From: Poseidonibacter parvus | GTDB lineage: Bacteria; Campylobacterota; Campylobacteria; Campylobacterales; Arcobacteraceae | Length of the DNA stretch: 64,000 nucleotides | Assembly: GCF_001956695.1 (NCBI RefSeq) | Contig: NZ_CP019070.1 | Location: forward strand, 2,666,001 to 2,730,000 | Direction of reading: 5' to 3' | Notes under the pieces: generated by a model | Seen by the model: only the letters and a program-made list of their open reading frames with translations | What the model was told of the DNA's origin: nothing | Database searches by the model: none | Shown: one piece after another, positions 23,119-38,787 of the stretch | Layout of the letters: every line of letters begins with the position of its first letter | Position numbering within the stretch: position 1 is the stretch's first letter | Made by a program: the position numbers and the translations under genes

Positions 23119-24332
23119 TTAGAAATATCTCTATTTCTGCTTTTATTAATATTATATTTTCATTAGCATTTATTGCAATACTAATTACATTTTCATTTTT
23201 TATCAGTTTTGATAAACAAAAACATGAAATCACTCAACAAAATAGATATGAGCTTATTGCTGAGAATTTTTTGAGTACTTTTCAAAATTTACCTGATGCA
23301 CAATCTCTTTTTAAACTTTTTAAAAAATTTCAAGTTAAGCCATTAGAAGATAGAGATGAAAAACTAGAGATAATCAAAAATGCCCAAGAACTTACAATCA
23401 CTCAAAATTACTTAGGAACATATAGAGTTTATAAATATGATAATACTTATTATATTTATGTACAACAATATGGATACAATCTTATGTTAAAAGATATAAG
23501 AAATCATAACTATAGTATGGCAATAATTGTAGGAGCTTTTATTCTTTCAATTGTAACAATACTTTTTTTATATGCGATTTTAAAAAGAAAATTAAAACCT
23601 TTAAAACTATTAAATAAGCAAATTATTGAGTTTTCAAATGGTAATAAAGATGTTAAAATAAAATCTGTTAGCAATGATGAAATAGGAACAATTGCAAAAA
23701 GTTTTAATGAAGCAATTACACTTATAAATAATCAAACAAAATCAAAAGATTTGTTTATGCGTAATATGATGCATGAACTTAAAACTCCAATTACAAAAGC
23801 CATGTTTATTGCAGAAACTCTAGATAATGAACAAACAAGAGATAATCTACAAAGAGCTTTTAAAAGAATGGACGATATTATAAAAGAGTTAGCAACTGTT
23901 GAAAAGCTAACATCTGCTAATAGTATGATGTATAAAGAGCCAACATCATTTTTTAATATTTATAATAAAACTTTAGAAATCATGATGGTAAATCCTGAAA
24001 ATATTGCATCTAAAATCAAATCATTTAACTTTTCAGTTGATATTTCTATGTTTTCAATTGCTCTTAAAAACTTGATTGATAATGCAATTAAATTCTCTCC
24101 GAATAATAAAGCAATTATTAATGCTTCAAAAGATGAAATACAAGTTATATCTCTTGGAGAACCATTACAATATGATTTAAGTTATTACACAGAAGCTTTT
24201 TCACAAGAAGAAAAAAGAAGTGATGGCTTTGGATTAGGTTTATATATCGTAAAAACCATTGCTTGTTTACATGGTTATACTTTAGAATATAAATATGAAA
24301 ATGGGAAAAACTACTTTATGATAAAAATGTAA
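23115..24332 (+). CDS. Sensor histidine kinase of the htrA operon
   Basis: A 405-residue membrane kinase: TM1 (about 13-32), a short periplasmic sensor region (about 33-133), TM2 (about 134-156), HAMP (about 157-209), H-box with His220 (MMHELKTPITK), an N-box near DNAIKFSP, and a G-box GFGLGLYIVK. It resembles the ArsS-type kinases of Campylobacterota. Its ATG overlaps the regulator's TGA, so the pair is translationally coupled. The signal is unknown; linkage to htrA suggests envelope stress. Confidence 0.9.
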   Translation: MIRNISISAFINIIFSLAFIAILITFSFFISFDKQKHEITQQNRYELIAENFLSTFQNLPDAQSLFKLFKKFQVKPLEDRDEKLEIIKNAQELTITQNYLGTYRVYKYDNTYYIYVQQYGYNLMLKDIRNHNYSMAIIVGAFILSIVTILFLYAILKRKLKPLKLLNKQIIEFSNGNKDVKIKSVSNDEIGTIAKSFNEAITLINNQTKSKDLFMRNMMHELKTPITKAMFIAETLDNEQTRDNLQRAFKRMDDIIKELATVEKLTSANSMMYKEPTSFFNIYNKTLEIMMVNPENIASKIKSFNFSVDISMFSIALKNLIDNAIKFSPNNKAIINASKDEIQVISLGEPLQYDLSYYTEAFSQEEKRSDGFGLGLYIVKTIACLHGYTLEYKYENGKNYFMIKM

Positions 24333-24350
24333 AATAGCTATTATTATAAC

Positions 24351-24390
24351 TTTTATGAAACTCTATTTTTTATTATAAAGTTTCATAAAA
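24351..24390. terminator. Bidirectional stem between convergent kinase and EamA genes
   Basis: TTTTATGAAACT (24351-24362) and its exact complement (24379-24390) are separated by a 16-nt A+T-rich loop. The stem overlaps the last codons of the EamA gene and lies 18 nt after the kinase stop. The weak composition leaves some doubt. Confidence 0.5.
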
Positions 24391-25223
24391 TTGTAGTGAA
24401 GATATAAAGATAAAGCTATAACTGCACTTCCTAAAAAAAGTAACAAATAATTACTTGTTTTTTCCCAAATGATAAGATTTACAAGTAACCCAACTGGAAC
24501 TAAAGCATTATTCATAATTGCAAGTACTCCTGCATCTACTAAACAAGCACCTTTGTTCCATAAAAAATATCCTAAACCAGAAGCTGCAACACCTAACCAA
24601 AATAAAACACCCCATTGAATTAATGAAGGAGATAGTTTTTCTGGATTTGCAAAAAGTATGAAAGATATAGCACTTATAATTAATGCTCCAAAATGAAAAT
24701 ATCCAAAAACATCTCTTTGTCTAATTTCTCTGTGTGACTCCATTACCTTTTTATAAGTACTTTGCCCCAAAGCAAAACAAATACTAGCGCCTTGAACCAT
24801 TAAAAAACCTGTAATAAAATCCTCATTAATATTTTGATATCGAATAATATATGCACCAAATACAGCTAACCCAGTACTTACAAGATAAAGTGCTTTAAAT
24901 TGTCCTTTTAACCCATCATAAAATAGTGTTACGTAAATAGGAGTGAATACAGTAAAAAGTACAACCTCAGGAACACTTAAAAATAGGAAGGACTTATAAA
25001 GAAAGATATACATTAGGCCAATTTGTACTGTTCCAATAAGCATGATTTTTAGTTTTAATTTATTGGGAATGCCTTTAAATTTTGTAAAAGGTAAAAAAAC
25101 TAATGAAGCTAATGCAACTCTAATAAGTACTGCAAAATAACTATCCACTTGACCTGCTAAAATCTCACCTATTAAACTAAAAGAAAATGCCCAAAGTATT
25201 GTCACAAAAATTAAATATTGCAT
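24363..25223 (-). CDS. EamA/DMT-superfamily transporter
   Basis: A 286-residue, very hydrophobic protein with about ten predicted membrane helices in two EamA-type repeats (about 1-130 and 140-280). The N-terminal helix LIFVTILWAFSFSLIGEIL and the proline-glycine-bearing repeats are typical of drug/metabolite exporters. It is the last gene of the long cobalamin-region run, 7 nt after the cysteine-rich gene. The substrate cannot be told from sequence. Confidence 0.85.
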   Translation of the reverse strand: MQYLIFVTILWAFSFSLIGEILAGQVDSYFAVLIRVALASLVFLPFTKFKGIPNKLKLKIMLIGTVQIGLMYIFLYKSFLFLSVPEVVLFTVFTPIYVTLFYDGLKGQFKALYLVSTGLAVFGAYIIRYQNINEDFITGFLMVQGASICFALGQSTYKKVMESHREIRQRDVFGYFHFGALIISAISFILFANPEKLSPSLIQWGVLFWLGVAASGLGYFLWNKGACLVDAGVLAIMNNALVPVGLLVNLIIWEKTSNYLLLFLGSAVIALSLYLHYNFMKLYNKK

Positions 25224-25230
25224 TTATTAT

Positions 25231-25656
25231 TTAGCTTCTTACATCTTTCATTACTTCAAACCAAGAACGGTTAAAATGTTTTTTTATATATTTTTCTCTA
25301 TGAGGAACTATACATCCTGAACAATTTTGATGAATATAATCATCTCCAATATATTGTGATCCATCTCGAGATTTAATATTACATACAGAAAATAAAGTTC
25401 TACCTTCCTCTGTTTTTTCAAAGCCTTCTGTTTTAAATCTAAAGTTTGGACAGGCACATAGATAACAGTTTAGGTCTTCCATATCATGGCATTTTTTATT
25501 GTCTTTATATAATGGACAGAAATCTGGCTCATTTTTTACCATATTATCAAATCTAAAATATTCTATTACCTCATCAACACTTTTATCTTCTAATTTTTTC
25601 ATTACATTTGCGTGAAGGTTTCCTTGCTGGATAAACCATTCGTCATAAGTCATCAT
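25231..25656 (-). CDS. Cysteine-rich small-domain protein of the cobalamin cluster
   Basis: A 141-residue cytoplasmic protein with nine cysteines, including CPLY...KKCHDMEDLNCYLCACPNF and a later HQNCSGCIVPHR. The pattern fits the 'cysteine-rich small domain' family (PF04071 as I recall it) that often sits beside cobalamin genes; metal binding is likely, and the function is unknown. The ATG (25656, or 25653) overlaps the TGA of cbiB, and AGGAG lies inside the end of cbiB, so translation is coupled. Confidence 0.7.
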   Translation of the reverse strand: MMTYDEWFIQQGNLHANVMKKLEDKSVDEVIEYFRFDNMVKNEPDFCPLYKDNKKCHDMEDLNCYLCACPNFRFKTEGFEKTEEGRTLFSVCNIKSRDGSQYIGDDYIHQNCSGCIVPHREKYIKKHFNRSWFEVMKDVRS

Positions 25657-26540
25657 AGTACTCCTAAAATCAATACAATTATTATAAATAAATCTAAGCG
25701 ATACTTTAACGAAAGTGTCTTTAAAACATCACTATTTTCAATACTTTCTTTTCCTATTCCAAAAAAAGCTTTTTCTTTTACTTTTCCAAAATATGAAGTT
25801 GAACCTCCAAGTTTTAAATCAAGACTTAAAGCCATTGCTGCAATTGGTAAGCCAGCATTTGGACTATCATGTTTAGAGCCATATTTATTAAACTCTTTTA
25901 ATGCTTTTTTACTTGCAAATAATAGTCCAATTAAAAAAGCTGTAATTCTTGCAGGAATGTAGTTTACAACATCATCCAGTATTGCGGATACTTTTCCAAA
26001 GTTTTCATACTTTTCATTTCTATATCCAACCATTGAATCAAGTGTATTGATAGCTTTATATAAATATGCTCCAACTATTCCAAAACATAATAAATAAAAC
26101 AAAGGAGCTATCACTCCATCACTTAAGTTTTCAGCGTATGTTTCTACTGCTGCTTTATTTACATCTGAGTTTGTCATATCGCGTGTATCACGACTAACTA
26201 ACATACTAATTTTTTGTTTTTTTATCTCTAAATCATTACTTGATATTACATCTTTCACGCTATCGTATAGCATTTTTGAAGCAAGTGTAAAAGAAGCTAA
26301 AAAGCCTTGAAAAAATACATTATCAAAACTAGCTAGGAAAGAAGTGATGAGATATACTATTAAAAGTAATGAAAGAGTAAGAATTGCACCTACTTTAATT
26401 GAATCTTCATAGTATTTTTCTTTAAACCAATTTATATAATCGCCCATTAAAATAATTGGATGTTTTATAAATTTTAATTTCTCAAACTCTCCAAAGATAT
26501 TATCTAAAATATAAGCTATCAAAGCAATACTATAAAACAT
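25653..26540 (-). CDS. cbiB: Adenosylcobinamide-phosphate synthase
   Basis: A 295-residue membrane protein that joins aminopropanol (phosphate) to adenosylcobyric acid. About five membrane segments are visible, with the family motifs RDTRDMTNSDVNKAAVET and SPNAGLPIAAMA. The start overlaps cobQ by 11 nt and the end overlaps the cysteine-rich gene by 4 nt. Its precursor partner, the threonine-phosphate decarboxylase, is encoded upstream in the same run. Confidence 0.95.
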   Translation of the reverse strand: MFYSIALIAYILDNIFGEFEKLKFIKHPIILMGDYINWFKEKYYEDSIKVGAILTLSLLLIVYLITSFLASFDNVFFQGFLASFTLASKMLYDSVKDVISSNDLEIKKQKISMLVSRDTRDMTNSDVNKAAVETYAENLSDGVIAPLFYLLCFGIVGAYLYKAINTLDSMVGYRNEKYENFGKVSAILDDVVNYIPARITAFLIGLLFASKKALKEFNKYGSKHDSPNAGLPIAAMALSLDLKLGGSTSYFGKVKEKAFFGIGKESIENSDVLKTLSLKYRLDLFIIIVLILGVL

Positions 26541-27921
26541 TATCTACTATCCTTTGAACATCGAGTTTATCTTTCATTGTATTTACAAAAGTATCTATTG
26601 AATTCTTTTTATACTCTTCAAACTTATACCCTATATATGAAGAATTAATTTCTTTAAAATATGAAGTTCTAAACTCATCATTATCAAAAATGCCATGTAC
26701 AAAAGTACCTTTGAATTTTTCACATTCAAATGATAATGAATATTCATCACTTTTTCCATGATGTATTTCAAAACCTTCTATTTGTGTATTAAATAAATCG
26801 TATGTTTTTTTTTCTAATATCTTCTGTTTTTCAAAAGTAATACTAGCAGGAATTTTGGCAAAGCCCTTTTCTATTAAAGCTTCACTATTTTCTAGTGCAT
26901 ACTTATCATCAAGATTTTCAAACATCATTTCATAACCACCACAAATACAACATATATCTTTTTTGTAGTTCTTAATTTGTTCAAATAGTCCATTTTCTTT
27001 TAGCCATTTTAAATCTTTTATCACAAGTTTTGAGCCTGGAAGTATTACAAGGTCAAACTTTTCAAGTGATACATTATAATCTACAAACTCTACAAATACC
27101 TCATCATCTGCAATTAGTGGTTCAATGTCATTATAGTTACTCATATATGGATATGAAATCACTGCAATATCAAGTTTTTTATTTTTAGGATTTTGTATAA
27201 AGTTTTTTAAAGAAGCTGAATCTTCAAAGCCTAAGTTAAATGGAATATATGGCAATACTCCTAAAACCGGAATTTTAAAATCTTCTTCAATTATTCTAAT
27301 ACCTTCATCAAATAAAGATAAATCACCTCTAAATTTGTTTACTACTACACCTATGATATTGTTTCTTAACTTTTCTGGAAGTAAATGATATACACCATAA
27401 ATAGATGCAAACACTCCACCTTTTTCTATATCTGCTACTAATATGATTTTGGTATTATATTCGTTTGCTATAAAGATATTTGAAAGGTCTTTATCCATTA
27501 AGTTTAATTCAACTGGACTTCCTGCACCTTCATTTACAATGCAATCATATTTTGAATCTAAGTATTCATAGCATCTTTTAACAGCAGGTTTTAGTAAATC
27601 TAAATCTCTATAGTATTCTAGTACTTCTTTATTTGCTACTACCTTACCCTCAACTATTAAAGAAGCAGAACTTCCTCGACCAGACTTAAGCAATACTGGA
27701 TTTAAATGATATGAAGTTTCAACTCCTAGTACTTCACTTTGAAAGTATTGGGCAATTGCTATTTCACTTCCATCATCACATACGTGAGAATTATTTGATA
27801 CATTTTGTGCTTTAAAAGGTGCAACGCTGTAACCTAAGTCTTGAAGTATCTTTGCTATTACAAATGTTATAGTTGATTTTCCTGCGTCTGAGGAAGTGCC
27901 TAGGATTGATATGTTATTCAT
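26530..27921 (-). CDS. cobQ: Adenosylcobyric acid synthase (glutamine-hydrolysing)
   Basis: About 463 residues. It amidates four carboxyls of adenosylcobyrinic a,c-diamide. The N-terminal P-loop domain reads ILGTSSDAGKST; the C-terminal class I glutaminase-like domain has the nucleophile Cys in CGGYEMM and His in FVHGIF. ATG 27921 (MNNISIL) matches the family start; in-frame ATGs at 27927 and 27933 are possible. Any of these starts lies inside the end of mcrB, so cobQ translation seems coupled to the restriction gene. Also called cbiP. Confidence 0.95.
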   Translation of the reverse strand: MNNISILGTSSDAGKSTITFVIAKILQDLGYSVAPFKAQNVSNNSHVCDDGSEIAIAQYFQSEVLGVETSYHLNPVLLKSGRGSSASLIVEGKVVANKEVLEYYRDLDLLKPAVKRCYEYLDSKYDCIVNEGAGSPVELNLMDKDLSNIFIANEYNTKIILVADIEKGGVFASIYGVYHLLPEKLRNNIIGVVVNKFRGDLSLFDEGIRIIEEDFKIPVLGVLPYIPFNLGFEDSASLKNFIQNPKNKKLDIAVISYPYMSNYNDIEPLIADDEVFVEFVDYNVSLEKFDLVILPGSKLVIKDLKWLKENGLFEQIKNYKKDICCICGGYEMMFENLDDKYALENSEALIEKGFAKIPASITFEKQKILEKKTYDLFNTQIEGFEIHHGKSDEYSLSFECEKFKGTFVHGIFDNDEFRTSYFKEINSSYIGYKFEEYKKNSIDTFVNTMKDKLDVQRIVDNVL

Positions 27922-29494
27922 ATACATCTTCATTTAATAGTTGTGTTACTTTTTTATAATTATCTTCATCTGCATAAAAATATTCTTCAAGTAATGGCTT
28001 GATTTTATATTCTTTTACAAATTCTAATTCTTCATCATTTACAACTTTCATAAAATAACTATGACCTAATTTATAATCTTCACCTATATTTTCACCAATA
28101 AATTCATTTAAATTCTTCATTAAAACTTTTGCATTATAAAAGTTTATCAACTCTTCATTTGGTTTCATTTTTAAAAAAGTGAATCTTCTTCGTAAAGCTA
28201 TATCAATAGTAGCAATTGATTTATCAGTACTATTCATCGTACCTATAATAAATAGATTTGATGGTATTTTAAATTTCTCTTTTGAATAAGGAAGCGTTAT
28301 CTCATAATCATCTCTTTTATCTTCTTCAATTAAAGTAATAAGCTCTCCAAATATTTTAGAGATATTTCCTCTGTTTATTTCATCTATTACTATGTAGAAG
28401 TTTTTTATATTTACTTGTCTAACTTCATCAATCTTAACTTTTTGTTTTTTTTGAAATTTATTAAATGATTTAATAAGATATGAAAAATAAGTTGCATGCT
28501 GATTTGCTAATCCACTCAAGCCTTCAGATTTTTTGATATCTTTTCTTTCACATATATTTAATTTATTCATTAACTCAATATCTGAAAATTTCATTCTTTG
28601 AGTATTTCCCCAACTATCACCAGTATATCTAAAGGCATCCTTTTCTATATCTGTAATGTATGCAGTATTATTTATTGTAAATTTTTGATTTGCATCTATT
28701 TCTTCTTGTATATAATCTTTATATAATTCAAATAATTCAAAAAAAGTTTTTTCATCTTTAATAGTGTTTATATCTTTATTTGATTCTTCTATATTTTTAT
28801 TTGCAAGCTCTGCAATTTCTTTAAATATCCCATCTTCTAATTTTATATTTCCACCATCGGTTGGTCTAAATCCTTCAATAAAATCTTCATAAGAGTAACT
28901 TTGATGAAAAGTTACAAACTCGATTCTTTTTTCATCTTTTATATTTTGAAAGATATCATTATATTCATCTGTAATATTATCATTAGTACTTATTGATTTA
29001 AAAATATTTTGTTCTTTAATACCCTCTTCTATCATTGATATAAGTTTTTTATAATTATGTGTTTTACCAACTCCTGGTGCACCATATAGCATTATATTTC
29101 TAGTACTTATTTCATGATTACTATCTTCTTCATTGTTAATTACTTCTAAGCTAAACTCTTCCTTTATGGCAAAATCAATCATTTGATTAATATTGTCACA
29201 GTTTCCTCCATTGTTACCCCACTGTGTAGTAAAAAACAATTCTTCTTTATTGTAGATAATTGGGTCAAAGTATCTATTTTTTTGATTCTCAGTTTTCTCT
29301 TCCCATTCATCTCTGGATAAAACAACAAAATTGTTATTACAATGCATTTTATTAAATAATTCTTGAATAACTTTGTATGATAATTCTAAATGTAGTCCTA
29401 AGTATTGTTTAAAAATATTAAAACATAAATCTCTTAATGATTTACCATTTCTTGCATTTTTTTTATAAATTATATCATTAAATTTAACTTCCAT
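27914..29494 (-). CDS. mcrB: McrB-like AAA+ GTPase subunit of a modification-dependent restriction system
   Basis: A 526-residue protein. The AAA+ module (about 130-526) has Walker A GAPGVGKT (138-145), Walker B with the McrB-type extension VIDEINRGN (369-377), sensor GTMNSTD (418-424) and the arginine cluster ALRRRF (433-438). McrB proteins translocate on DNA through GTP hydrolysis and recruit the McrC nuclease at methylated cytosines. The N-terminal ~120 residues would be the DNA-recognition part; I do not recognise it, and it differs from the E. coli McrB N-domain by eye. A long insertion (about 210-360) separates the Walker motifs. It overlaps mcrC by 11 nt and cobQ by 8 nt. Confidence 0.9.
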   Translation of the reverse strand: MEVKFNDIIYKKNARNGKSLRDLCFNIFKQYLGLHLELSYKVIQELFNKMHCNNNFVVLSRDEWEEKTENQKNRYFDPIIYNKEELFFTTQWGNNGGNCDNINQMIDFAIKEEFSLEVINNEEDSNHEISTRNIMLYGAPGVGKTHNYKKLISMIEEGIKEQNIFKSISTNDNITDEYNDIFQNIKDEKRIEFVTFHQSYSYEDFIEGFRPTDGGNIKLEDGIFKEIAELANKNIEESNKDINTIKDEKTFFELFELYKDYIQEEIDANQKFTINNTAYITDIEKDAFRYTGDSWGNTQRMKFSDIELMNKLNICERKDIKKSEGLSGLANQHATYFSYLIKSFNKFQKKQKVKIDEVRQVNIKNFYIVIDEINRGNISKIFGELITLIEEDKRDDYEITLPYSKEKFKIPSNLFIIGTMNSTDKSIATIDIALRRRFTFLKMKPNEELINFYNAKVLMKNLNEFIGENIGEDYKLGHSYFMKVVNDEELEFVKEYKIKPLLEEYFYADEDNYKKVTQLLNEDVYE

Positions 29495-30614
29495 ATATTT
29501 TCTCCAATTTTATTTTAATACTTCTTATATATTCACTATAACTACTATCATCATAATTTAAATCTACAGTTTTAATTCTAAGATTTACTTTATTTTCATT
29601 CTTACCTAAAATCAATTCATCATCATATTCATTTTTATACTTTGGGTATAAAAGCATAGTATTTTTTATCTTATAATTATTTGCATAAACATACATTTGA
29701 AACTTATCATCTCTTTTAATTTTATGTTCACTACTTAACTTTTTATACTTAGTATCAATTATCAAATCATTTACAATAATATCTGGTTTTAATATCAAGT
29801 CTTCAAAAGTATCACAACTTTGGAGTTTTGTATTTGGTTCAATTTCTTTACTCATTTTACCAATAAATTTTTCAAATAAGATATTCATATCAAATAAAAA
29901 GGCAAAGGATTTTTTATCTAGTGAAAATAAAGGAATATATTTATTTAAAAGTAAAAGAGCAAACTCAAAAGAGTCTTTGAATCTTTGATTTAATCTATTA
30001 AAATGAATATTCAAACTATTTATATCAAAGTTCTTATCTTCTACCTCATCAAAAATTAATTCACATTGTTTTAAAAGCTTTTTATCTTTTACACTTTTTG
30101 CTAATATTTTTATTGCGTATAAGAAAAATTGATTTAAACTATTATTCATAGAGAATTCATCATATTCACAATAAATCTTTGTCTTTGAGAAGTTATACTT
30201 TAAATTTTCATTTATTAGATATTTCCCTCTTAATGTAGTCAAGTTATTTTCTTGAGTTGTATACTCTTTATAAATACCTTTTTGTAACTCTTTAAATAAA
30301 TTTTGTGCGAACATTTGAATAAAGACTTCTATAAAACTATGCTTATGATTTTGACATGAAGCTAACTGTTCATTTTCAAGTTTTATGTCATAACAATACA
30401 TTAACATATATATAAATATGTCTAAATTATTCTCATCTTGCTTAGAAATTTTAGGAAGAATAAAATAGTCTTTATTATAAATATTAAGAATTCCACAGTA
30501 TTGTTGAGTTCTTACTTTTCCCCAATCTTCTTTAAAGTATTTATGTAAAGATTTATTATCTATTATAGTTTTTGAAATTTCTTCTGGAACTTCTTGGTAT
30601 TCATATAAATACAT
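29484..30614 (-). CDS. mcrC: McrC-like nuclease subunit of the restriction system
   Basis: A 376-residue protein of the McrC family. The N-terminal half (about 1-150) would contact the McrB ring; TTLRGKYL (126-133) is a family motif. The C-terminal half holds a PD-(D/E)xK nuclease: PDII (277-280, Asp278) followed by DTKYKKL (Asp287-x-Lys289) and FQMYVYANNY. All catalytic positions look intact. The order mcrC then mcrB is the reverse of the E. coli operon. It lies 13 nt after relE. No DNA methyltransferase is nearby, as expected for a modification-dependent enzyme. Confidence 0.9.
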   Translation of the reverse strand: MYLYEYQEVPEEISKTIIDNKSLHKYFKEDWGKVRTQQYCGILNIYNKDYFILPKISKQDENNLDIFIYMLMYCYDIKLENEQLASCQNHKHSFIEVFIQMFAQNLFKELQKGIYKEYTTQENNLTTLRGKYLINENLKYNFSKTKIYCEYDEFSMNNSLNQFFLYAIKILAKSVKDKKLLKQCELIFDEVEDKNFDINSLNIHFNRLNQRFKDSFEFALLLLNKYIPLFSLDKKSFAFLFDMNILFEKFIGKMSKEIEPNTKLQSCDTFEDLILKPDIIVNDLIIDTKYKKLSSEHKIKRDDKFQMYVYANNYKIKNTMLLYPKYKNEYDDELILGKNENKVNLRIKTVDLNYDDSSYSEYIRSIKIKLEKIYGS

Positions 30615-30627
30615 TTATTCTTTTTCC

Positions 30628-30897
30628 TTAAGGAAATTTTCTATAGGCTTCTTTTCTGTGTCGAACTCTTATTATTTCTATAATAAGTTCATCTTTTTCA
30701 ATCGAGTAAATTACTCTGTAATTTCCTACTTTAATTCTATAAATAGATTCAGTACCTAAAAGTTTTTTATAATTTGTGGGAAAAGGATCATTTGATAGGT
30801 TTTCTATTGAAAGAAAGATTTTCTTTATTTCAGTTTTATCAATCTTTTTAAATTCTTTTTTAGCAGATAGTTTCCACTGAATTTTATATAAGGCCAT
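30628..30897 (-). CDS. relE: RelE/ParE-superfamily toxin
   Basis: An 89-residue basic protein with the typical beta-alpha-alpha-beta core: KIQWKLSAKKEFKKID at the start, YRIKVGNYRVIYSIE in the centre and the C-terminal RVRHRKEAYRKFP. RelE-type toxins cut mRNA at the ribosome. Its ATG overlaps the antitoxin by 14 nt. It is inferred to form a pair with the upstream Phd/YefM-like protein. A ParE-type (gyrase) action cannot be excluded. Confidence 0.9.
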   Translation of the reverse strand: MALYKIQWKLSAKKEFKKIDKTEIKKIFLSIENLSNDPFPTNYKKLLGTESIYRIKVGNYRVIYSIEKDELIIEIIRVRHRKEAYRKFP

Positions 30898-31084
30898 CTT
30901 CTTTTAATTCCTTGTAAAAATCTTCACTAGAAATTGATTCTTCATCTTTTCTTTGGGCAACAGTTACTAAATCTTCAAAGTCTTCAAGCATATTTTCATA
31001 TTCTTCAATTGATATGATAACTGATGTTTTTTCTCCATTATCATTTGTAATATACTGAGGGTGTAAATTCATAGACATAGTCAT
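30884..31084 (-). CDS. relB: Phd/YefM (RelB-like) antitoxin
   Basis: A 66-residue protein with GGAG six nt before the ATG. The N-terminal part binds DNA in this family (YITNDNGEKTSVIISIEEYE); the acidic C-terminal tail (EESISSEDFYKELKEDGLI) would wrap the toxin. A palindrome overlaps its -10 region, consistent with autorepression. First gene of the relB-relE-mcrC-mcrB block. Confidence 0.88.
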   Translation of the reverse strand: MTMSMNLHPQYITNDNGEKTSVIISIEEYENMLEDFEDLVTVAQRKDEESISSEDFYKELKEDGLI

Positions 31085-31098
31085 TAGATACTCCTTTT

Positions 31099-31116
31099 TA
31101 TAATAATTATATTATA
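31099..31116 (-). promoter_or_regulatory. Candidate operator/-10 region of the relBE-mcrCB block
   Basis: An 18-bp perfect palindrome, TATAATA-ATTA-TATTATA, lies 15 nt upstream of relB and contains TATAAT-type -10 sequences on both strands. It could be the site of RelB-RelE autorepression and would give the block its own promoter inside the cobalamin run. A+T-rich palindromes also occur by chance. Confidence 0.45.
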
Positions 31117-31131
31117 TCAAATTTTTATTTA

Positions 31132-31737
31132 TTACTTATATTCTAACTTGTCTACTACTAACTGCTTATTCTTAAAAGGGTCAATAATCGCTTCGATTTC
31201 GTCAAATTTATATTTCAACCTAAAACCTATTTTTGAGTTTGTTGCTGTTGATTCTAAGATATAAAAAGCCTTATCATTTACATATAATGCTTTTTTATTT
31301 GCTAATTTACTTTTTAAATTTACTATTACAAATATATGTTTTGGAACTAACACAAAGTAAGCTTCATAGCCTTTCATATTTAGCATTGAAATTAGAAGAT
31401 TTGATTTATCATCACAATCTCCAAAGTTTTGACTTACTACTTGCTTTGAACTTCTAGCAACACTTTCATTAACTTTATATGGTATTCTTGTTACAAAATC
31501 TAGCATTTTTTGAACTTCACATATTTCATTTTCTTGGCATGTTTTTGTTAGATGATTTGCAAGTCTTAAAGTGTAATCATCACGTCTTACTTGATTTACA
31601 TAAGTTAAATCACCTATATCTATAAATTGTTTTTTGACAATATTATAAGATGTAAAAATCATATAAATTACGTAAGCAATAAAAATGAAAGACAGAATAA
31701 ATGAAAAGTATTTTAAATATTTATTATTTACTAACAT
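31132..31737 (-). CDS. Membrane-anchored transglutaminase-like protein
   Basis: A 201-residue protein with one N-terminal membrane segment (about 9-29) and an extracytoplasmic domain of the transglutaminase-like (TGc) fold. A likely triad is Cys108 (FGDCDDKSNLL), His134 (VPKHIFVIV) and Glu162 (LESTATNSKIG). Such domains act as cysteine proteases or amidases as well as cross-linkers; the substrate is unknown. The start overlaps the end of the cobC/cobD gene by 7 nt, so it belongs to the cobalamin transcript, but no cobalamin role is known to me. Confidence 0.75.
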   Translation of the reverse strand: MLVNNKYLKYFSFILSFIFIAYVIYMIFTSYNIVKKQFIDIGDLTYVNQVRRDDYTLRLANHLTKTCQENEICEVQKMLDFVTRIPYKVNESVARSSKQVVSQNFGDCDDKSNLLISMLNMKGYEAYFVLVPKHIFVIVNLKSKLANKKALYVNDKAFYILESTATNSKIGFRLKYKFDEIEAIIDPFKNKQLVVDKLEYK

Positions 31738-32744
31738 ATTTCTTCTAAGGCTTTTTTCAAAATACTTAAATGATTTGATGATTTAACAGCGATTCGTACA
31801 TATGAATCATCTAAAAAATCAAAATTTTGGCAGTTTCTTATCATGATTTTATATGGTTTTAGTTTTTCTTGAAATTGCCTTGCATTTATAGTTTTTAGTT
31901 TTGCAAGTATATAGTTTGCACTACTTTGATATATCAGTTCAATTAAATCTGAATTTTTTAGTATATTTTCTAATTCTAATTTATTTTTTGCATTTATTGC
32001 TTTTGAGATTCTTTTAAAACTATTATCTTCAAGAGCAGCTTGTAAATAGTTTGAATCAAAAGTTGAGAGTTTCCACATTGGCTCAAATCTTTTTAATGAA
32101 TCAATATTTTTTTCATTTGATACAATACAACCTACTCTAATGCCCGCACTTGAATAAAATTTTGTCATAGATTTTAAAATATATAATTTATCATATTTTT
32201 CTAAATACTTAATAGCTGAATCCCCATCACAAAAATCTAAAAAGCTTTCATCTATTAAAATAGTACAATTTCTTTCAATCCAATATTCCATCAAATTATC
32301 AAAATCATAATATGTTCCATCAGGAGTTGAAGGGTTTACAAAAATTACTAAGCTCTTTTCTTTTACTGGTAAATTCATATTTTCAAAGCGATTTATTGTT
32401 CTTAATTCATAGCCAAAGTTTACACAAGCTTTTTTATACTCTAAATACGCAGGTGAATAAATAGTACAATGTTTTAAATTTAAGTGCCTAAAAAGTGCAA
32501 AAATAGCTGAGCTTCCACCATTGAAAAGCTCCATCTGAGATGGTTTTATCTTATAGTTTTTTGCAATCTTTTCATATAACTTGTCATAAATTGGATAAGA
32601 AGAGATATCAAGATTATTAAAATTAATATTTACCTCTGGTTTTATAAAGTTGATGTTTGAAGAAAGGTCGATTATCTCATCTATTTTACAGTTTAACTCT
32701 TTGGCAAAGAGTTCTACTTGTCCACCATGTTCATAAGTTTTCAT
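31731..32744 (-). CDS. cobD: Threonine-phosphate decarboxylase-like aminotransferase (CobC/CobD)
   Basis: A 337-residue PLP enzyme that makes aminopropanol phosphate for the cobalamin lower-loop linker. ATG 32744 (MKTYEHGGQ) overlaps the cobS stop as ATGA and gives the family N-terminus. PLP-binding landmarks: GGSSAIFALF (76-85), VNPSTPDGT (136-144), DESFLDF (165-171) and the Schiff-base Lys195 in SMTKFYSSAGIRVG. Named cobC in some genomes; cbiB downstream is its partner. Confidence 0.9.
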   Translation of the reverse strand: MKTYEHGGQVELFAKELNCKIDEIIDLSSNINFIKPEVNINFNNLDISSYPIYDKLYEKIAKNYKIKPSQMELFNGGSSAIFALFRHLNLKHCTIYSPAYLEYKKACVNFGYELRTINRFENMNLPVKEKSLVIFVNPSTPDGTYYDFDNLMEYWIERNCTILIDESFLDFCDGDSAIKYLEKYDKLYILKSMTKFYSSAGIRVGCIVSNEKNIDSLKRFEPMWKLSTFDSNYLQAALEDNSFKRISKAINAKNKLELENILKNSDLIELIYQSSANYILAKLKTINARQFQEKLKPYKIMIRNCQNFDFLDDSYVRIAVKSSNHLSILKKALEEIC

Positions 32745-33487
32745 AAAATTAAAGCCAATGCGATATTTAATAAAAGCAATTCTGTATGTTCTAGAGTAAA
32801 GCCTAAGCAATCACCATTTACAAAAGAAAACTTTTTATCTAAAACTTTTAATATAAAATAAAAACTAAGAAGTGAAATTATAAAAAGTATTATTACATTT
32901 GAAGCAAAAAACATAGCTATTAAAACATAAAGTAAAGTGATTATTTTAAGCTTCCCTACTCCTGCACTTTGAAAAGCAAGTGATAAAAAGCTATCTTTGT
33001 TAAATTTAAAAAATTGTAATAAATACATGAAATTTAGTCTAGAAAACACTAAAACTATAATAAACAAAGCATACTCTTGTTTATATAAAATATAAGTAGA
33101 GATTCCAACTTTTAATAAAACAAAGCAAAAAGCATATAAAGCACCAATTGCTCCAATAGTTGGGTCTTTCATGATTTTATATGGATCTTTTCCTGAATAA
33201 GAAGCAAACCATGCATCAACTACATCACATATAGCTTCTAAATGTAAAAATCCATAAAGAACCAAATAAAAGACAGATGCAACAAAAGCTGAATATAATG
33301 GATTAAAAAGCTCATTTAAAAAAAGATTTAAAGCTATTACAGTACACCCAAGTATAAAACCAACTAATGGCAAAAGAGCAAGAGAGTATTTATAAGTGTC
33401 ATTTGTAATTTTCATCTCTTTTACAAATACAGGAATAATCGAAAAATACGAAAGTGCAAAATAAAAAGCGTTTAGTATTTGTTTCAT
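32741..33487 (-). CDS. cobS: Adenosylcobinamide-GDP ribazoletransferase
   Basis: A 248-residue inner-membrane enzyme with about six helices that joins alpha-ribazole to adenosylcobinamide-GDP. The family motifs FLHLEAICDVVDAWFAS and GKDPYKIMKDPTIGAIG are clear. It overlaps cobU and cobC/cobD by 4 nt each. Confidence 0.95.
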   Translation of the reverse strand: MKQILNAFYFALSYFSIIPVFVKEMKITNDTYKYSLALLPLVGFILGCTVIALNLFLNELFNPLYSAFVASVFYLVLYGFLHLEAICDVVDAWFASYSGKDPYKIMKDPTIGAIGALYAFCFVLLKVGISTYILYKQEYALFIIVLVFSRLNFMYLLQFFKFNKDSFLSLAFQSAGVGKLKIITLLYVLIAMFFASNVIILFIISLLSFYFILKVLDKKFSFVNGDCLGFTLEHTELLLLNIALALIL

Positions 33488-33978
33488 TTTAATCTTTTTG
33501 AAAGTGAATATTTAACTTCATAAACTTCATCACAAAGCTTTACTAACTCTTGTCCTATAAGTCCTGAGAAATCTACAAATCTTCTAGACTCACTATCAAA
33601 AGGAATTACTCCACAAGAAACATCATTTAAAACAAAAACAATATTTGCATCTATTTTACAGACATTTTGTAATTGTTTTTTTAATACTTCTTCATCTTTT
33701 TCAAGATTGTTAAAAAGCCACATAGAAACACAATCAACTAAATATGTTTTATTATCTTCAATTACTTTGTCTAAATCTTTTGGCTCTTCAATAGTTAAAA
33801 ACTCATCAACTCTATCTTCTAAATGTTTATCAATTCTATTTTGCATTGAAGAGTCATTGTAAGAATTATCGTAAGTAGCAACATAATATGGTTTCTGATT
33901 TATTGAAAGTTCAAGTGCTTTTTGTGAAGCAGCGCTTGTTTTCCCTGATTTTTGACCACCAAAATATAATATTTTCAT
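33484..33978 (-). CDS. cobU: Adenosylcobinamide kinase/guanylyltransferase
   Basis: A 164-residue enzyme that phosphorylates adenosylcobinamide and adds GMP. P-loop GGQKSGKT (7-14); later VDCVSMWLFN and VLNDVSCGVIPFD match the family, in which a His or neighbouring residue takes GMP. Slightly shorter than E. coli CobU (181). Coupled to cobS by an ATGA overlap and to marC by a shared base. Confidence 0.94.
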   Translation of the reverse strand: MKILYFGGQKSGKTSAASQKALELSINQKPYYVATYDNSYNDSSMQNRIDKHLEDRVDEFLTIEEPKDLDKVIEDNKTYLVDCVSMWLFNNLEKDEEVLKKQLQNVCKIDANIVFVLNDVSCGVIPFDSESRRFVDFSGLIGQELVKLCDEVYEVKYSLSKRLK

Positions 33979-34577
33979 TATAAACCTAAAAAGTTTTTAA
34001 TACCCGTAAATACAATTTGAGCAGATAAAGCAGCTAAAAATAATCCTGTTATTTTTGAAATCACTAAAAGCCCTTGTTTACCGATAATCTTTTCAATAAT
34101 ATTAGAGCTATAAAGCATAATCCCTATTACTAAAACAGCACAAATCAAAGCTAAACTTCCCATTACCATTGAAGACTTGTTTTCAAAAGTTGCCCCCATT
34201 ACTAGTAAAATACCAATAGTTCCAGGTCCAATGGTAATAGGAATAGCAAGAGGTACGACTGCTAAGTCTAAGATATCTTTATCTCCTACTTTAGCTGTAG
34301 CTTTGTTCCCTTGGATTAATTCAACTGCGGATAAAAACATTAGTGCTCCAGCACCTATTCTAAAAGCATCTAAAGTTATTCCAAATACATCAAAAATATG
34401 ATTACCAAAAAACAATAATACTAAACTTACTACAATCACAGATGTTGTAACTTTAATTGCTAACTTTTTTCTTTCTTTTATTGTTGCATCGTGAGTTACT
34501 GTTAAAAAAACAGACAACACAAAAAATGGTGTCATAATAAAAAACATTTTTAAAAATGTTGATATAAAAATTTCCAT
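33978..34577 (-). CDS. MarC-family integral membrane protein
   Basis: A 199-residue protein with six predicted membrane helices and the family's PLAIPITIGPGTIGILL segment. MarC proteins were once linked to antibiotic resistance, but their transport role is unproven. It sits between cobT (3 nt upstream) and cobU (1-nt overlap), so it is transcribed with cobalamin genes; whether that has meaning is unknown. Confidence 0.9.
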   Translation of the reverse strand: MEIFISTFLKMFFIMTPFFVLSVFLTVTHDATIKERKKLAIKVTTSVIVVSLVLLFFGNHIFDVFGITLDAFRIGAGALMFLSAVELIQGNKATAKVGDKDILDLAVVPLAIPITIGPGTIGILLVMGATFENKSSMVMGSLALICAVLVIGIMLYSSNIIEKIIGKQGLLVISKITGLFLAALSAQIVFTGIKNFLGL

Positions 34578-34580
34578 GAT

Positions 34581-35645
34581 TTATCCTAAAAAACTTTCAA
34601 TTTTTTTTGTTAATGTGATTTTTTCAATTGAATTAATTGCTGCATAACATAAAGCAGCACCACAACCAACACCCTCTTTTGCTTCGCCTTCATCATATAG
34701 TTTCAATGCAGGGTGAGAAGATTCTGAAAAGTCAAAACTAGAAGCATAAGCATTTATAGGAAATGCAAGCTGTTGTAAAAGTGCTTTTATATTTGAGTTT
34801 TCATCTTCATTAATCCATTTAGTAGTACATAAAGCAATATTTGAAGAGTTAATTTCTCCTTGCATACTTTCTAAAATAGAATTAACAATTAAAAGTACAG
34901 TAGCCATTTGAGTACCACCAGCTAGTATTACTTTTAAATCTTTTGATGTACTTCCTAAAACAAAACCTGCATTAAAAATTAGCATATTATCAGCTACATT
35001 TGATAGTTTTGCAAAAACATCATCATTTTGTAAAACTCTATTTAAAGCATTTTTTATTGTTTCATTTTTAATATCACTTGGATTATTTTTAAAAGAGCTT
35101 GAAAAATATCCATCACTTGAATAACCTAAAGCCTTAGCTGTAGCATTTGCTGTTGTTGTTCCACTTGGAACTGATTCTGCAAGAATTACATAATCGTCAT
35201 TTGTTTCATACGAACTTGCAAACTGTACTCCTGCTTGAAAAACTGCCATTGCATCAATTTTTGCACCATCATCAATTCGTGCACTTGGCTCTAAATCAAA
35301 ATCATGTATTTTAAAGTAATCAATTTTTGGTTTAACTTCTAATCCTAAATCAAGTATTTCAATATTTGAAAAAGGTTTTAGTTCATGAACTGCCCTTGTG
35401 ATAAGTGCAGGAGTTGGTACTCCTTTTGGAGTTTGAGCAATATCTTCTAAAGAACGAACTTCTTTTAAACATAAGAATTCTGCATCTAATGTAGGTGTTA
35501 ATGAAAGTTTTCCAGGAATTCCAGCTTGAGAGATATTAGGAATTTCACAAGTTTTTGTAACACTTCCTGATAAAAGGAAAGTTGCTTTTTTACCTCTTAA
35601 ATATTCAAGAAAATCGCTACTTCCCAAAATTGTTTCAAAGTTCAT
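34581..35645 (-). CDS. cobT: Nicotinate-nucleotide-dimethylbenzimidazole phosphoribosyltransferase-like protein
   Basis: A 354-residue protein. CobT activates the lower-ligand base to its alpha-ribotide. Motifs include PKGVPTPALITRAVHEL (near 92-108), ESVPSGTTTANATAKALGYS and a C-terminal EGVGCGAALCYAA. The sequence looks like the subfamily found in archaea, cyanobacteria and Campylobacterota rather than the E. coli/Salmonella type. It is the first cobalamin gene, 45 nt after dsbD, with no room for a riboswitch. Confidence 0.88.
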   Translation of the reverse strand: MNFETILGSSDFLEYLRGKKATFLLSGSVTKTCEIPNISQAGIPGKLSLTPTLDAEFLCLKEVRSLEDIAQTPKGVPTPALITRAVHELKPFSNIEILDLGLEVKPKIDYFKIHDFDLEPSARIDDGAKIDAMAVFQAGVQFASSYETNDDYVILAESVPSGTTTANATAKALGYSSDGYFSSSFKNNPSDIKNETIKNALNRVLQNDDVFAKLSNVADNMLIFNAGFVLGSTSKDLKVILAGGTQMATVLLIVNSILESMQGEINSSNIALCTTKWINEDENSNIKALLQQLAFPINAYASSFDFSESSHPALKLYDEGEAKEGVGCGAALCYAAINSIEKITLTKKIESFLG

Positions 35646-35690
35646 TTGAAGCCTTTTATTTAATTTTTAGGAAGTATAACAAATATGCGC

Positions 35691-37463
35691 TTATTTAAAA
35701 TATTTATTCACAATTTCAAGAAAATCTTTTGGATTTTTGTATCCTACAATTTTAGAAGCTTTTACTTCTTTATTATTTGTATCCCAGAAAACTAATCCTG
35801 GAGGTCCAACTATTCCATATTTTGTTTGTAAAGCTTTATCATCATCATTGTTTGCTGTTACATCAGCTTTTAAAAGTGTAAATCCTTGAAGTTTTTTAAT
35901 TACTTCAGGATCTTTGAAAGTTATCTCTTCTAACTCTTTACAAGCTACACACCAATCCGCATAAAAATCTAACATTACGGGTTTAGAAGAAGCTGCAATT
36001 GCTAAATCTAACTCCTCAATATTTTTAATATAAGAGAATTTCAAAGCTTGTGTTTGACTAACAACTCCTGAAGCATTTGTAAATTTTTCAAATGGTTTTA
36101 AAGGATTTGTAGCTCCTGAGATAGTTCCAAAGAATAAAGAAACACCGTAAAGGAATATTACAACAGTTACAAGTTGAGCTAAAATATGTTTGTATACGTT
36201 TAAGTAAATTGCAGCTCCTAAGAATAATAATGACCATAAAAACATTACAATACTTGCATCTAAAACTCTATCTAACATCCAAATAGCAATTGCTAGCATT
36301 ACAATTCCAAATACTTTTGAAACAGAATCCATCCATCCACCAGGTTTTGGCATGAATTTTCCTGCACCAATTCCAATTAATAACAATGGCATTCCCATTC
36401 CTATGCTTAACACAAACAGTGCAAGTCCACCTAGAACTGCATCACCTGTTTGTCCAATATAAACCAAAGCACCTGCAAGTGGAGGAGCAACACAAGGTCC
36501 AACAATTAATGCTGAAAGGAACCCCATAATTGCAATTCCTAAGATACCTTGTTTCTCTTTTCCATCTGTAGTTTTATTTATTTTATTTTGAATACTTTGT
36601 GGTAACTCGATTTTAAAGTATCCAAACATTGAAAATGCAAGTGCTATAAATATAGCTGCAAAAACAGTTAAAACATAAGGATTTTGAAGTGCTACTTGTA
36701 AGTTTGCACCAAATAATCCTGCTATTACACCTGCAATTGTATATGCCATTGCCATTGCTAAAACATAAACTAGTGACAAAAAGAAGCCTTTACTTGCTGT
36801 CATTTTTTCATTTTGAGATGCACCTACAATAATTGAAGATAAAATAGGAATCATTGGAAAAACACAAGGAGTAAATGAAAGTAATAAACCAAATCCAAAG
36901 AATGTAGCTAAAACTAATAACATATTTCCTGTTTTCAAAGTATTTGCAATACTGTCTGTTTCATTTAATTCAACAGTACTATCTGCTAATTTTTCTACTT
37001 TTTTTTCACTTACTAATTGACTTGTACTCTCTTGCTTTGAAGTATTAGAAAAATCATTTAACTCAAACTTCTCACTCATTGGTGCATAACAAAGCCCAGC
37101 TTTAGAACAACCTTGAAACTTAAAAGTTAACTCAGCTGTGCTAGTTGCTATTTTTGATTCAATTAAAGAATAAGGTACTTCAATATTTTGATTTGTAAAA
37201 TGAACAATAAACCCATCATATTCTACAGGTTTTGGAATATCCACTTCTTTTGTAATATCAATTTTTGAAGGTTTGGTAATTAATACTTGAAGTTTATCAT
37301 CATATAAATATATATCCTTCCCTAAATTTAATTTGAAAACAATTTTTTTATTTTCTTTTACTATTTCCGTTTTAAAAGCTTCATCTGGCTCTAAAAAATT
37401 TTGTTCAAATTCTAATGAAAAAGCATATAAGCTTATAAACAATAGTAATAATATTTTTCTCAT
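35691..37463 (-). CDS. dsbD: Thiol:disulfide interchange protein DsbD
   Basis: A 590-residue protein that carries electrons from cytoplasmic thioredoxin to the periplasm. ATG 37463 has AGGA six nt upstream. Signal peptide (about 1-17); N-terminal alpha domain with the Cys pair CSKAGLC; eight-helix membrane domain with Cys in FTPCVFPMIP and GPCVAPPLAG; C-terminal thioredoxin domain with CVAC (Cys505, Cys508). All three Cys pairs are present. It is upstream of cobT in the same direction; co-transcription is possible. Confidence 0.96.
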   Translation of the reverse strand: MRKILLLLFISLYAFSLEFEQNFLEPDEAFKTEIVKENKKIVFKLNLGKDIYLYDDKLQVLITKPSKIDITKEVDIPKPVEYDGFIVHFTNQNIEVPYSLIESKIATSTAELTFKFQGCSKAGLCYAPMSEKFELNDFSNTSKQESTSQLVSEKKVEKLADSTVELNETDSIANTLKTGNMLLVLATFFGFGLLLSFTPCVFPMIPILSSIIVGASQNEKMTASKGFFLSLVYVLAMAMAYTIAGVIAGLFGANLQVALQNPYVLTVFAAIFIALAFSMFGYFKIELPQSIQNKINKTTDGKEKQGILGIAIMGFLSALIVGPCVAPPLAGALVYIGQTGDAVLGGLALFVLSIGMGMPLLLIGIGAGKFMPKPGGWMDSVSKVFGIVMLAIAIWMLDRVLDASIVMFLWSLLFLGAAIYLNVYKHILAQLVTVVIFLYGVSLFFGTISGATNPLKPFEKFTNASGVVSQTQALKFSYIKNIEELDLAIAASSKPVMLDFYADWCVACKELEEITFKDPEVIKKLQGFTLLKADVTANNDDDKALQTKYGIVGPPGLVFWDTNNKEVKASKIVGYKNPKDFLEIVNKYFK

Positions 37464-37621
37464 CAATAGTCCTAATATGGTTTGGTTGTAAATATATCTT
37501 ATTATATTAAAATTTTGTAAAGAGTTTGTTAATTCTAAATTCTTTTCTTATTAAATATAAGATTTTATTATATTTATTTATAAGATAATTATGATAAAAT
37601 CTTCTTTATAAAAGGATATTT

Positions 37622-37981
37622 ATGAATGAATTAGTAGATTTACAACCAAGAATTGTAGAAAAAATGATTAATGATAATATTGTGATGATTGATGTTAGAA
37701 GGGAAGAAGAATGGAAGAGAACAGGATTAATTAAAAATTCTCATCTTTTAACATTTTTTGATGACAATGGTGAATATAATTTAGAAGATTGGATGAATAA
37801 ATTTGAAAAGCTTGTTACATCAAAAGATCAAACTTTTATTTTAATATGTGCAAGAGGAAATAGAACTAGAACTATTGGGAATTATTTGATATCGCAAGAT
37901 TATAAAAATACATCTCATTTATTTGGAGGAATGGTTTTATGGCAACAAGAATTAAGAGAAACTACTAAGTATGAAGCTTAG
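37622..37981 (+). CDS. Cytoplasmic rhodanese-domain protein
   Basis: A 119-residue single-domain sulfurtransferase. The active-site loop CARGNRT has Cys76 that would carry the persulfide; MIDVRREEEWKRTGLIKNS is the usual N-terminal half. No signal peptide. Its stop overlaps by 4 nt the stop of a paralogous gene on the other strand. The acceptor is unknown. Confidence 0.88.
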   Translation: MNELVDLQPRIVEKMINDNIVMIDVRREEEWKRTGLIKNSHLLTFFDDNGEYNLEDWMNKFEKLVTSKDQTFILICARGNRTRTIGNYLISQDYKNTSHLFGGMVLWQQELRETTKYEA

Positions 37982-38379
37982 TAGTTTATAATTTTTCTAT
38001 CTGAATCAACCCATTCATCAATTCCACCTTTAAGATACATTGCATTTCTCATCTTTTTTTCATTATATAACTTTGAAGCCAATTTTTCTGCTTTTTTGCC
38101 ATCTTTTGATATCAAAACAAATGCTCTATTTTTGTCTTTAATTAATCTTATTAATGTATGTAACCATTTTTTTTCATCTTTACTTGTATAGGTTATTCTA
38201 TAAGAGTTAGGAATAATTCCTGTTTGCTTCCATTTACTTTTATCTCTAATATCAACAATAATAATATTTTTCTGGATAAAAACTTCAAGTTCATCAACTA
38301 TTAATGATTTAACATCTTTTGCAAAAGATGCCGTAGTTAGGTATGAAATTAGTGTAATAAGTATAAATAGCTTTTTCAA
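37978..38379 (-). CDS. Periplasmic rhodanese-like protein lacking the catalytic cysteine
   Basis: A 133-residue precursor starting at TTG 38379 (AAAGGA five nt upstream), with a signal peptide ending near TASFA (about 20). The domain parallels its convergent neighbour: IVDIRDKSKWKQTGIIPNSY versus the same pattern there. At the active-site position the sequence is LISKDGKKA, with Ser91 instead of Cys, so it should not transfer sulfur. It may bind a ligand or protein instead. Confidence 0.8.
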   Translation of the reverse strand: MKKLFILITLISYLTTASFAKDVKSLIVDELEVFIQKNIIIVDIRDKSKWKQTGIIPNSYRITYTSKDEKKWLHTLIRLIKDKNRAFVLISKDGKKAEKLASKLYNEKKMRNAMYLKGGIDEWVDSDRKIINY

Positions 38380-38448
38380 TTGTTTCCTTTAATTAAATTA
38401 ATAAGATAATTATAACAAAAAAAAGTTTCTAAAAAGTATTTATAAAGT

Positions 38449-38474
38449 AAAGATAAGAAAAAAATCTTATCTTT
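38449..38474 (-). terminator. Candidate terminator after the 76-residue protein
   Basis: AAAGATAAGA (38449-38458), an A6 loop and the exact complement (38465-38474), 12 nt after the stop at 38487. The T-run on the minus strand is poor, so function is uncertain. Confidence 0.45.
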
Positions 38475-38486
38475 TATATTCTGAGA

Positions 38487-38717
38487 TTATGCGTTTTTTC
38501 TATCTTCGCTAGCTTTTTGTAAAATAGTAATAATTTCATCTAAGTTTTCATAAGGAATATGTGATTTCCATTGAATATCTGTACCATTTAATGAAACACC
38601 AATACTTACGATATCTGCTGTATCTTTTCCGTAAGGCTCAGTAACATTAGAAACTGAAATAACACCTTTTTTTGTACCTGCTAATGGTAATGAACCTAGT
38701 TCTGTAATTGTAGACAT
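38487..38717 (-). CDS. Small protein of unknown function
   Basis: A 76-residue cytoplasmic protein. The composition is ordinary and it reads like a real small beta-rich domain (KKGVISVSNVTEPYGKD, ADIVSIGVSLNGTDIQWKSHIP) with a C-terminal helix. I do not recognise the family. It stands alone between a rhodanese and an EAL-domain gene, with its own likely terminator. Confidence 0.7.
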   Translation of the reverse strand: MSTITELGSLPLAGTKKGVISVSNVTEPYGKDTADIVSIGVSLNGTDIQWKSHIPYENLDEIITILQKASEDRKNA

Positions 38718-38787
38718 TTTGTACCCTTATTATTTAATTTTTAATTCTGCTATTATTTTACAAAAATAAACTTTTGTTTTATTAAAA

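Follow-up and report, generated by a model that had tools for sequence, protein, structure and literature searches.

The usual places to look for defense genes are islands, prophages and the sites of tRNA genes, and one account describes the immigration control region of E. coli, like the leuX hotspot, as a defense hotspot between conserved flanks (PMC12707154). The locus considered here resembles such hotspots in having conserved flanks, variable and restriction-rich contents, and replacement of those contents between relatives. It differs in lying inside metabolic operons (cob, and elsewhere hyp), with its cargo flush against the next gene; it is a defense-type variable slot, known in kind, but inside metabolic operons. 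It was found in a stretch of 64,000 nucleotides from Poseidonibacter parvus (Arcobacteraceae; contig NZ_CP019070.1, positions 2,666,001 to 2,730,000), which as a whole is called the window below. There, a toxin-antitoxin pair, relB-relE, and a pair of McrBC type, mcrC-mcrB, stand within a cluster of cobalamin genes, between tgl, a transglutaminase-like gene, and cobQ. It is probable, in our judgment, that the tgl-cobQ interval is a variable cargo slot in Arcobacteraceae, occupied in the window by RelBE and then McrCB, and that mcrCB lies where relatives carry a KAP-family NTPase. No tRNA gene, which is a common but not a defining anchor of hotspots, was found in the eight loci scanned of the 40 described next.

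One way to recognize such a slot is to compare the junctions of the cluster across the family. Among 104 Arcobacteraceae genomes searched, 72 gave a CobQ match of any strength; 40 cobQ loci were fetched, 34 of them had a defined interval, and the gap between tgl and cobQ was measurable in 29. The flanks are conserved and the contents differ: the gap, with a median of 1,961 bp, can be as short as 8 bp (in genomes G078, G080 and G083) or as long as 8,294 bp, and 26 of the 29 loci have more than 150 bp there. Gaps of more than 150 bp do not occur at marC-cobU (0/30), cobS-cobC (0/29) or cobC-tgl (0/29); the last two distances are 6 and 3 nt too large as computed, since the cobC and tgl query proteins began at their third and second codons. 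The opening at tgl-cobQ exceeds chance because these three neighboring junctions never open.

The closest relative, G096, with a cobQ 97% identical to that of the window, places the replacement to the base. Its order is relBE, the tail of a different ParE-type toxin (30/30 nt), a KAP gene and cobQ. Nucleotide similarity to the window extends through the final base of the relE stop codon, is then lost, and returns 3 bp ahead of the cobQ ATG; therefore mcrCB and the KAP gene hold the same place, which has been overwritten more than once. A reading of the window made beforehand from its letters alone (the sequence-only reading) had described relB to mcrB as a block, but the four genes are not a single unit: in G096, relBE occupies the same place without mcrBC and is followed by the KAP NTPase. 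The same reading offered, as one of two alternatives, that the block had been inserted without breaking the cob operon, and here the relatives bear it out. Nor is the block an ancient possession of all relatives: in the nine genus-mates searched, this McrC was never next to cobQ, and G093 and G094 have copies of 49% identity on other contigs.

What most commonly adjoins cobQ in the relatives is the gene of a KAP-family NTPase, and this gene usually terminates on ATGAATAA, as mcrB does. A KAP gene or its tail is flush with cobQ in 13 of the 34 loci (nine full genes and four tails, one of these weak at 23/34), and in five more the KAP gene is displaced within the slot. Two of these NTPases, checked individually against Pfam, match KAP_NTPase. 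When the 87 open reading frames (ORFs) of at least 60 aa in the slots were tallied with PADLOC, 14 matched the candidate defense family PDC-S49 and three matched PifA; the tally does not name its members, but the PDC-S49 count is the number of KAP ORFs, and the KAP NTPases are probably PDC-S49. The same ORFs include seven with ParE_toxin, one McrBC and 12 SDR, plus histidine kinases and TonB/FecR genes, and RelE-type genes are present in the slot at eight of the 40 loci. The KAP NTPases before cobQ (L064-L089) keep their P-loop half and a C-terminal FIETGILI tail and are hypervariable in between, somewhat like sensor regions under diversifying pressure. The genome of the window has no KAP relative of this kind, and a search of its slot for a KAP remnant or a copy of the cobQ start found neither: the best tail match there, 21/34, is within the 16-22/34 background of tail-less loci.

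Most interesting in this distribution is that the cob and hyp slots exchange cassettes of the same families. McrC relatives of at least 49% identity number 22 in the family, and 20 were fetched: hypD and hypE enclose ten of these, and one more directly follows hypD on a short contig; hemC is the gene directly in front of two (L110 and L114), and five have other locations; one in G056 follows tgl and precedes dtd; and a second McrC of G065 precedes the gene for a 141-aa protein at the end of a contig. G249, from another family, likewise has an McrCB copy between hypD and hypE. KAP genes are found at two of the same places as McrCB: between hypD and hypE in G015, and behind tgl and before dtd in G063, G055 and G068. 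The hypD-hypE gap ranges from -4 to 13,244 bp in 76 genomes and exceeds 1 kb in 28 (30 bp in the genome of the window). This junction of the hydrogenase-maturation operon (for example in G014, locus L112, 5362-11336) is a second variable slot inside an operon, with McrCB, KAP, DUF1016, MazG-like and 6-phosphogluconate-dehydrogenase-like genes; the site behind hemC is a possible third. The joints are tight: of the 17 loci in which the gene after mcrB shares its strand, 14 have no more than 25 bp between the two. The McrC tree needs six slot changes, where the minimum would be three. A plasmid origin was also considered: a tblastn search with McrC gave matches in 189 plasmid records, all below 60% identity, the best at 45% (Sulfurospirillum diekertiae), and identified no source.

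Genes of the defense type are exchanged here inside two biosynthetic operons, in register with neighbors of the essential type. The slots are places to seek new defense genes in Arcobacteraceae, which are water- and animal-associated bacteria, and they offer a testable setting for the movement of restriction and toxin-antitoxin genes that lack transposition genes of their own, and for whether translational coupling preserves such genes. Judged by titles or the beginnings of abstracts, in a partial coverage of the literature, no publication describing the tgl-cobQ slot was found.

How cargo comes and goes can be traced in part from what it leaves behind. In two relatives the cobQ start is present twice, and the additional copy follows a KAP tail at 31 bp; it measures 83 bp in G001 (88% identity) and 52 bp in G092 (79%); the cargo adjoining these copies is an ATPase_2/DUF234 gene in G001 and other genes in G092, not McrBC. 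Such copies would be the signature of a long target duplication, or of recombination with a donor having other DNA before cobQ. Insertion with long target duplication reportedly accompanies restriction-modification genes in a Helicobacter context (Nobusato, 2000, to go by the title), and the flanking copies in G001 and G092 are of that sort. A 46-bp match at G000:C1:307347 (E 3.7e-4, 83% identity) lies in unrelated sequence and was taken as chance. Loss has left scars in G023 and G024, where the first KAP codons are joined to the KAP tail at a shared AATCAACAA and cobQ is open. The short ORF that remains after this deletion (L083 and L080) ends on the ATGA of cobQ, and may be a small leader that feeds ribosomes to cobQ.

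McrBC systems have been argued, in a section of one paper, to be mobile and able to kill hosts that become methylated (PMC2614495), and another states that, for some restriction systems that move, no element responsible is known (PMC3874152). For the slot described here, its variability, the alternation of its cargo, the exact breakpoints, the scars and the copies of the cobQ start are observed, and we infer the route of entry, the restriction activity and the coupling to cobQ as follows. Cargo would arrive by uptake of foreign DNA or of DNA from a sister strain; one of its ends would be joined by homologous recombination in the conserved cob genes, the other non-homologously at a gene boundary; some arrivals would leave a copy of the cobQ start, as a long target duplication. 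McrBC would then be read from a relB promoter, the cob promoter or both; the McrB ring would translocate on recognized DNA and McrC would cut it, so that incoming DNA is restricted; RelBE may stabilize the cassette; and cobQ would stay expressed by read-through of the operon and by termination-reinitiation at ATGAATAA.

Several observations weigh against the tgl-cobQ interval as a slot of this kind. Other junctions of the cluster also open, with gaps above 150 bp at cobT-marC in 10 of 31 loci, at cobU-cobS in 5 of 33 (in genera in which cobQ lies between cobU and cobS) and at cobQ-cbiB in 12 of 32 (for the most part a uniform 1.5 kb within a single genus). Much of the cargo, such as the SDR, histidine kinase and TonB/FecR genes, is not defense, so the slot is a general one. 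No integrase or transposase is among the 25 Pfam families listed out of 53, which leaves the machinery of entry unseen. The slot of the window has no duplicated cobQ start, and in this it differs from G001, G092 and insertion by long target duplication. The branches of the McrC tree are poorly resolved (of 19 inner branches, 8 are starred and 9 open), and the tree names no donor. Finally, the comparison uses one genome per species, in which gain or loss within a species does not appear.

The two gene pairs themselves are of recognizable families. The mcrC and mcrB products share with the modification-dependent (type IV) McrBC restriction systems an McrB AAA+ motor with its NxxD motif, an McrC nuclease of the PD-(D/E)xK class, an overlapping two-gene arrangement and a variable McrB N-terminal domain; they differ in that mcrC comes first and in that the N-terminal domain has no Pfam family or clear fold. 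The catalytic motifs are intact. The Walker A, Walker B and NxxD motifs are all present in McrB, which matches solved McrB chains by sequence as well as PF07728 (AAA_5), and the active site of McrC aligns with that of a solved McrC. The E. coli models NF008457 (McrB) and NF007277 (McrC) match below their cut-offs; a PADLOC scan named McrB weakly as 'REase_II' and returned nothing for McrC or RelBE. Restriction activity would follow from family membership. GC content is 21.5% in mcrC and 23.5% in mcrB, against 24.7-30.5% for the genes of the cob cluster.

Among relatives, McrB N-termini vary widely and the motor is conserved. The N-terminal domain in the window (about residues 1-125) has close kin in two other genomes, at 59 and 56% identity, and weak partial matches in four further genomes, of 298 searched. 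It matches no Pfam family, and its model (pLDDT 86) gave no clear fold match (best Foldseek E 0.94; best VIA-align Z 3.1), which does not make the predicted fold new. The order with mcrC ahead of mcrB, noticed in the sequence-only reading, stands: mcrB is not the upstream gene here, that being a usual and not a defining trait of McrBC. It is also the order of 19 of the 20 related copies fetched, the twentieth leaving its contig before mcrB. According to a portion of one source, mcrC-first is the minority order among McrBC systems generally, most being mcrB-first (PMC11090510). In four loci (L110, L116, L120 and L122), mcrC and mcrB are separated by a gene for a DUF1016/YhcG nuclease, perhaps as a three-gene variant of the McrCB system.

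RelBE is a predicted type II toxin-antitoxin pair of the RelBE/ParDE kind. The antitoxin gene comes first and overlaps the toxin gene, the family models match (PF18506; PF05016 and TIGR02385), and nothing noteworthy differs from the described systems. The pair and the genes behind it may have a promoter of their own upstream of relB, at a TGATATAAT common to G096. A promoter scan gave no excess over shuffled sequence (72 found, 76.4 expected) and TGATATAAT was not among the rows shown; a terminator scan gave four candidates, none between relB and cobQ. No Rfam model matched at its gathering score in 24000-40000, so that there is no cobalamin riboswitch at that threshold in this interval.

A second question is whether the neighborhood of cobQ helps to keep the cargo in place. 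The predicted Shine-Dalgarno before cobQ in the window, at -1.4 kcal/mol, is the weakest of the 27 loci scored (range -5.8 to -1.4); that of G088, at -1.5, is practically tied with it, and the sites in KAP tails are at about -4.3. The scores use an anti-Shine-Dalgarno string that was not taken from this genome; the row for cobC, which used a non-start codon, was disregarded, and seven of the 34 loci, having no start codon at the expected place, were left out. It is plausible, because the predicted Shine-Dalgarno is weak, that cobQ translation depends on mcrB, as a milder form of translational coupling. With the weak Shine-Dalgarno and the ATGAATAA overlap together, termination-reinitiation at cobQ is likely, as at cobS (score -1.1), which overlaps cobU by 4 nt.

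From this it is a short step to supposing that cargo hitch-hikes on the operon: a gene flush before a housekeeping gene with a weak start would be shielded from decay by point mutation, since a broken reading frame in mcrB would leave cobQ without ribosomes, and its clean deletion would be free. The position of cobQ at the weak end of the scores is in accord with this, as are the ATGAATAA overlap found with KAP, McrB and a RelE-like gene, which are not related to one another, and the mini-ORF of G023 and G024, which still ends on the ATGA of cobQ after the KAP deletion. The overlap can also arise passively, however: there are stops in both other frames of the first bases of cobQ, an out-of-frame ORF entering ATGAATAA stops within 8 nt, and the overlap alone is thus no evidence of selection. 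Moreover, scores are weak for cobS and eamA of this region as well, and most relatives have a better Shine-Dalgarno before cobQ. KAP genes flush with cobQ are intact in 9 of 9 cases, against 11 of 15 elsewhere (p = 0.26, not significant; tallied by hand, with one gene cut by its contig counted as intact). Hitch-hiking is accordingly rather unlikely as the explanation. A broader proposal is to be held just as tentatively: that Arcobacteraceae keep interchangeable defense cassettes (McrCB, KAP/PDC-S49, toxin-antitoxin) in slots of housekeeping operons (cob, hyp, perhaps hemC), flush with the next gene; the ribosomes that reach this gene would be those leaving the cassette, so that frame-breaking decay is selected against and clean replacement is free. 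If true, cassettes would be maintained by their position in an operon and without an integrase.

A stronger form of dependence had been raised as speculation in the sequence-only reading: that the block is addictive in two ways, its loss starving the cell of cobalamin. Spelled out, loss would kill through RelE and also by this starvation. As the mcrB stop codon overlaps the cobQ start with its weak Shine-Dalgarno, less CobQ might be made in nonsense mutants of mcrB. After clean loss, however, cobQ remains usable, and so it does after replacement, as seen in the three nearly empty sites with 8-bp gaps, in the G023 and G024 scars and in the different cargo elsewhere; in addition, the genome of the window encodes a methionine synthase of MetE type. 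Starvation for CobQ on loss of the block is unlikely for these reasons, and the intactness of flush KAP genes, not significantly raised, does not favor addiction either; we give double addiction very little credence. Least probable of all is a functional link, with restriction and cobalamin genes co-regulated because they act together: the genes share a strand and overlap, but the McrCB family is also found behind hypD, hemC and elsewhere, cobQ in nine genus-mates has other neighbors or scars, and the partner is not constant.

On the minus strand, the order of the cobalamin cluster is cobT, marC, cobU, cobS, cobC, tgl, relB, relE, mcrC, mcrB, cobQ, cbiB and the 141-aa gene; the block and its flanks are given in the table.

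Features of the tgl-cobQ slot in the window
Feature	Position	Strand	Description
tgl, transglutaminase-like gene	31737-31132	-	left flank of the slot; PF01841 E 3e-4, below cut-off; conserved behind cobC
TGATATAAT, extended -10 promoter-like	31111..31119	-	candidate, 5' of relB; identical in G096; found by eye
relB	31084-30884	-	RelB-like antitoxin, 66 aa, first gene of the block; PF18506 E 7e-8; 97% identical at the same place in G096
relE	30897-30628	-	RelE/ParE-family toxin, 89 aa; PF05016 E 2e-15, TIGR02385 above cut-off; 90% identical in G096
mcrC	30614-29484	-	PD-(D/E)xK nuclease subunit, 376 aa; PF10117 E 8e-55; solved McrC 6ut5_G E 1e-23; KPD 276, IDTK 286
mcrB	29494-27914	-	AAA+ motor subunit, 526 aa; solved McrB chains E 6e-48; GAPGVGKT 138, IVIDEIN 368, NSTD 421
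mcrB/cobQ overlap	27914..27921	-	8 nt, ATGAATAA, holding the cobQ start codon and the mcrB stop codon
cobQ, cobyric acid synthase	26530..27921	-	right flank of the slot; NF001989 above cut-off

The order, common strand and overlaps of the four block genes, as given in the sequence-only reading, are all reproduced by the computed coordinates: relB and relE overlap by 14 nt, relE and mcrC are 13 nt apart, and mcrC and mcrB overlap by 11 nt. The statement that the block lies between cobalamin genes is correct for the cluster as a whole but not for the immediate upstream neighbor, which is tgl and not cobC; tgl overlaps cobC by 7 nt and ends 47 nt before relB. The 8-nt overlap of mcrB and cobQ presupposes a cobQ start at 27921, whereas the ORF finder places it at 27933; ATG occurs three times in frame. 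Most full-length matches in relatives begin at residue 1 or 2 of the CobQ query with the 27921 start, which is the best, not a proven, choice. The gene at 33978-34577 is presumably a membrane gene like those of the MarC family (marC); a marC-like gene separates cobT from cobU here, as it does in most relatives with the same gene order.

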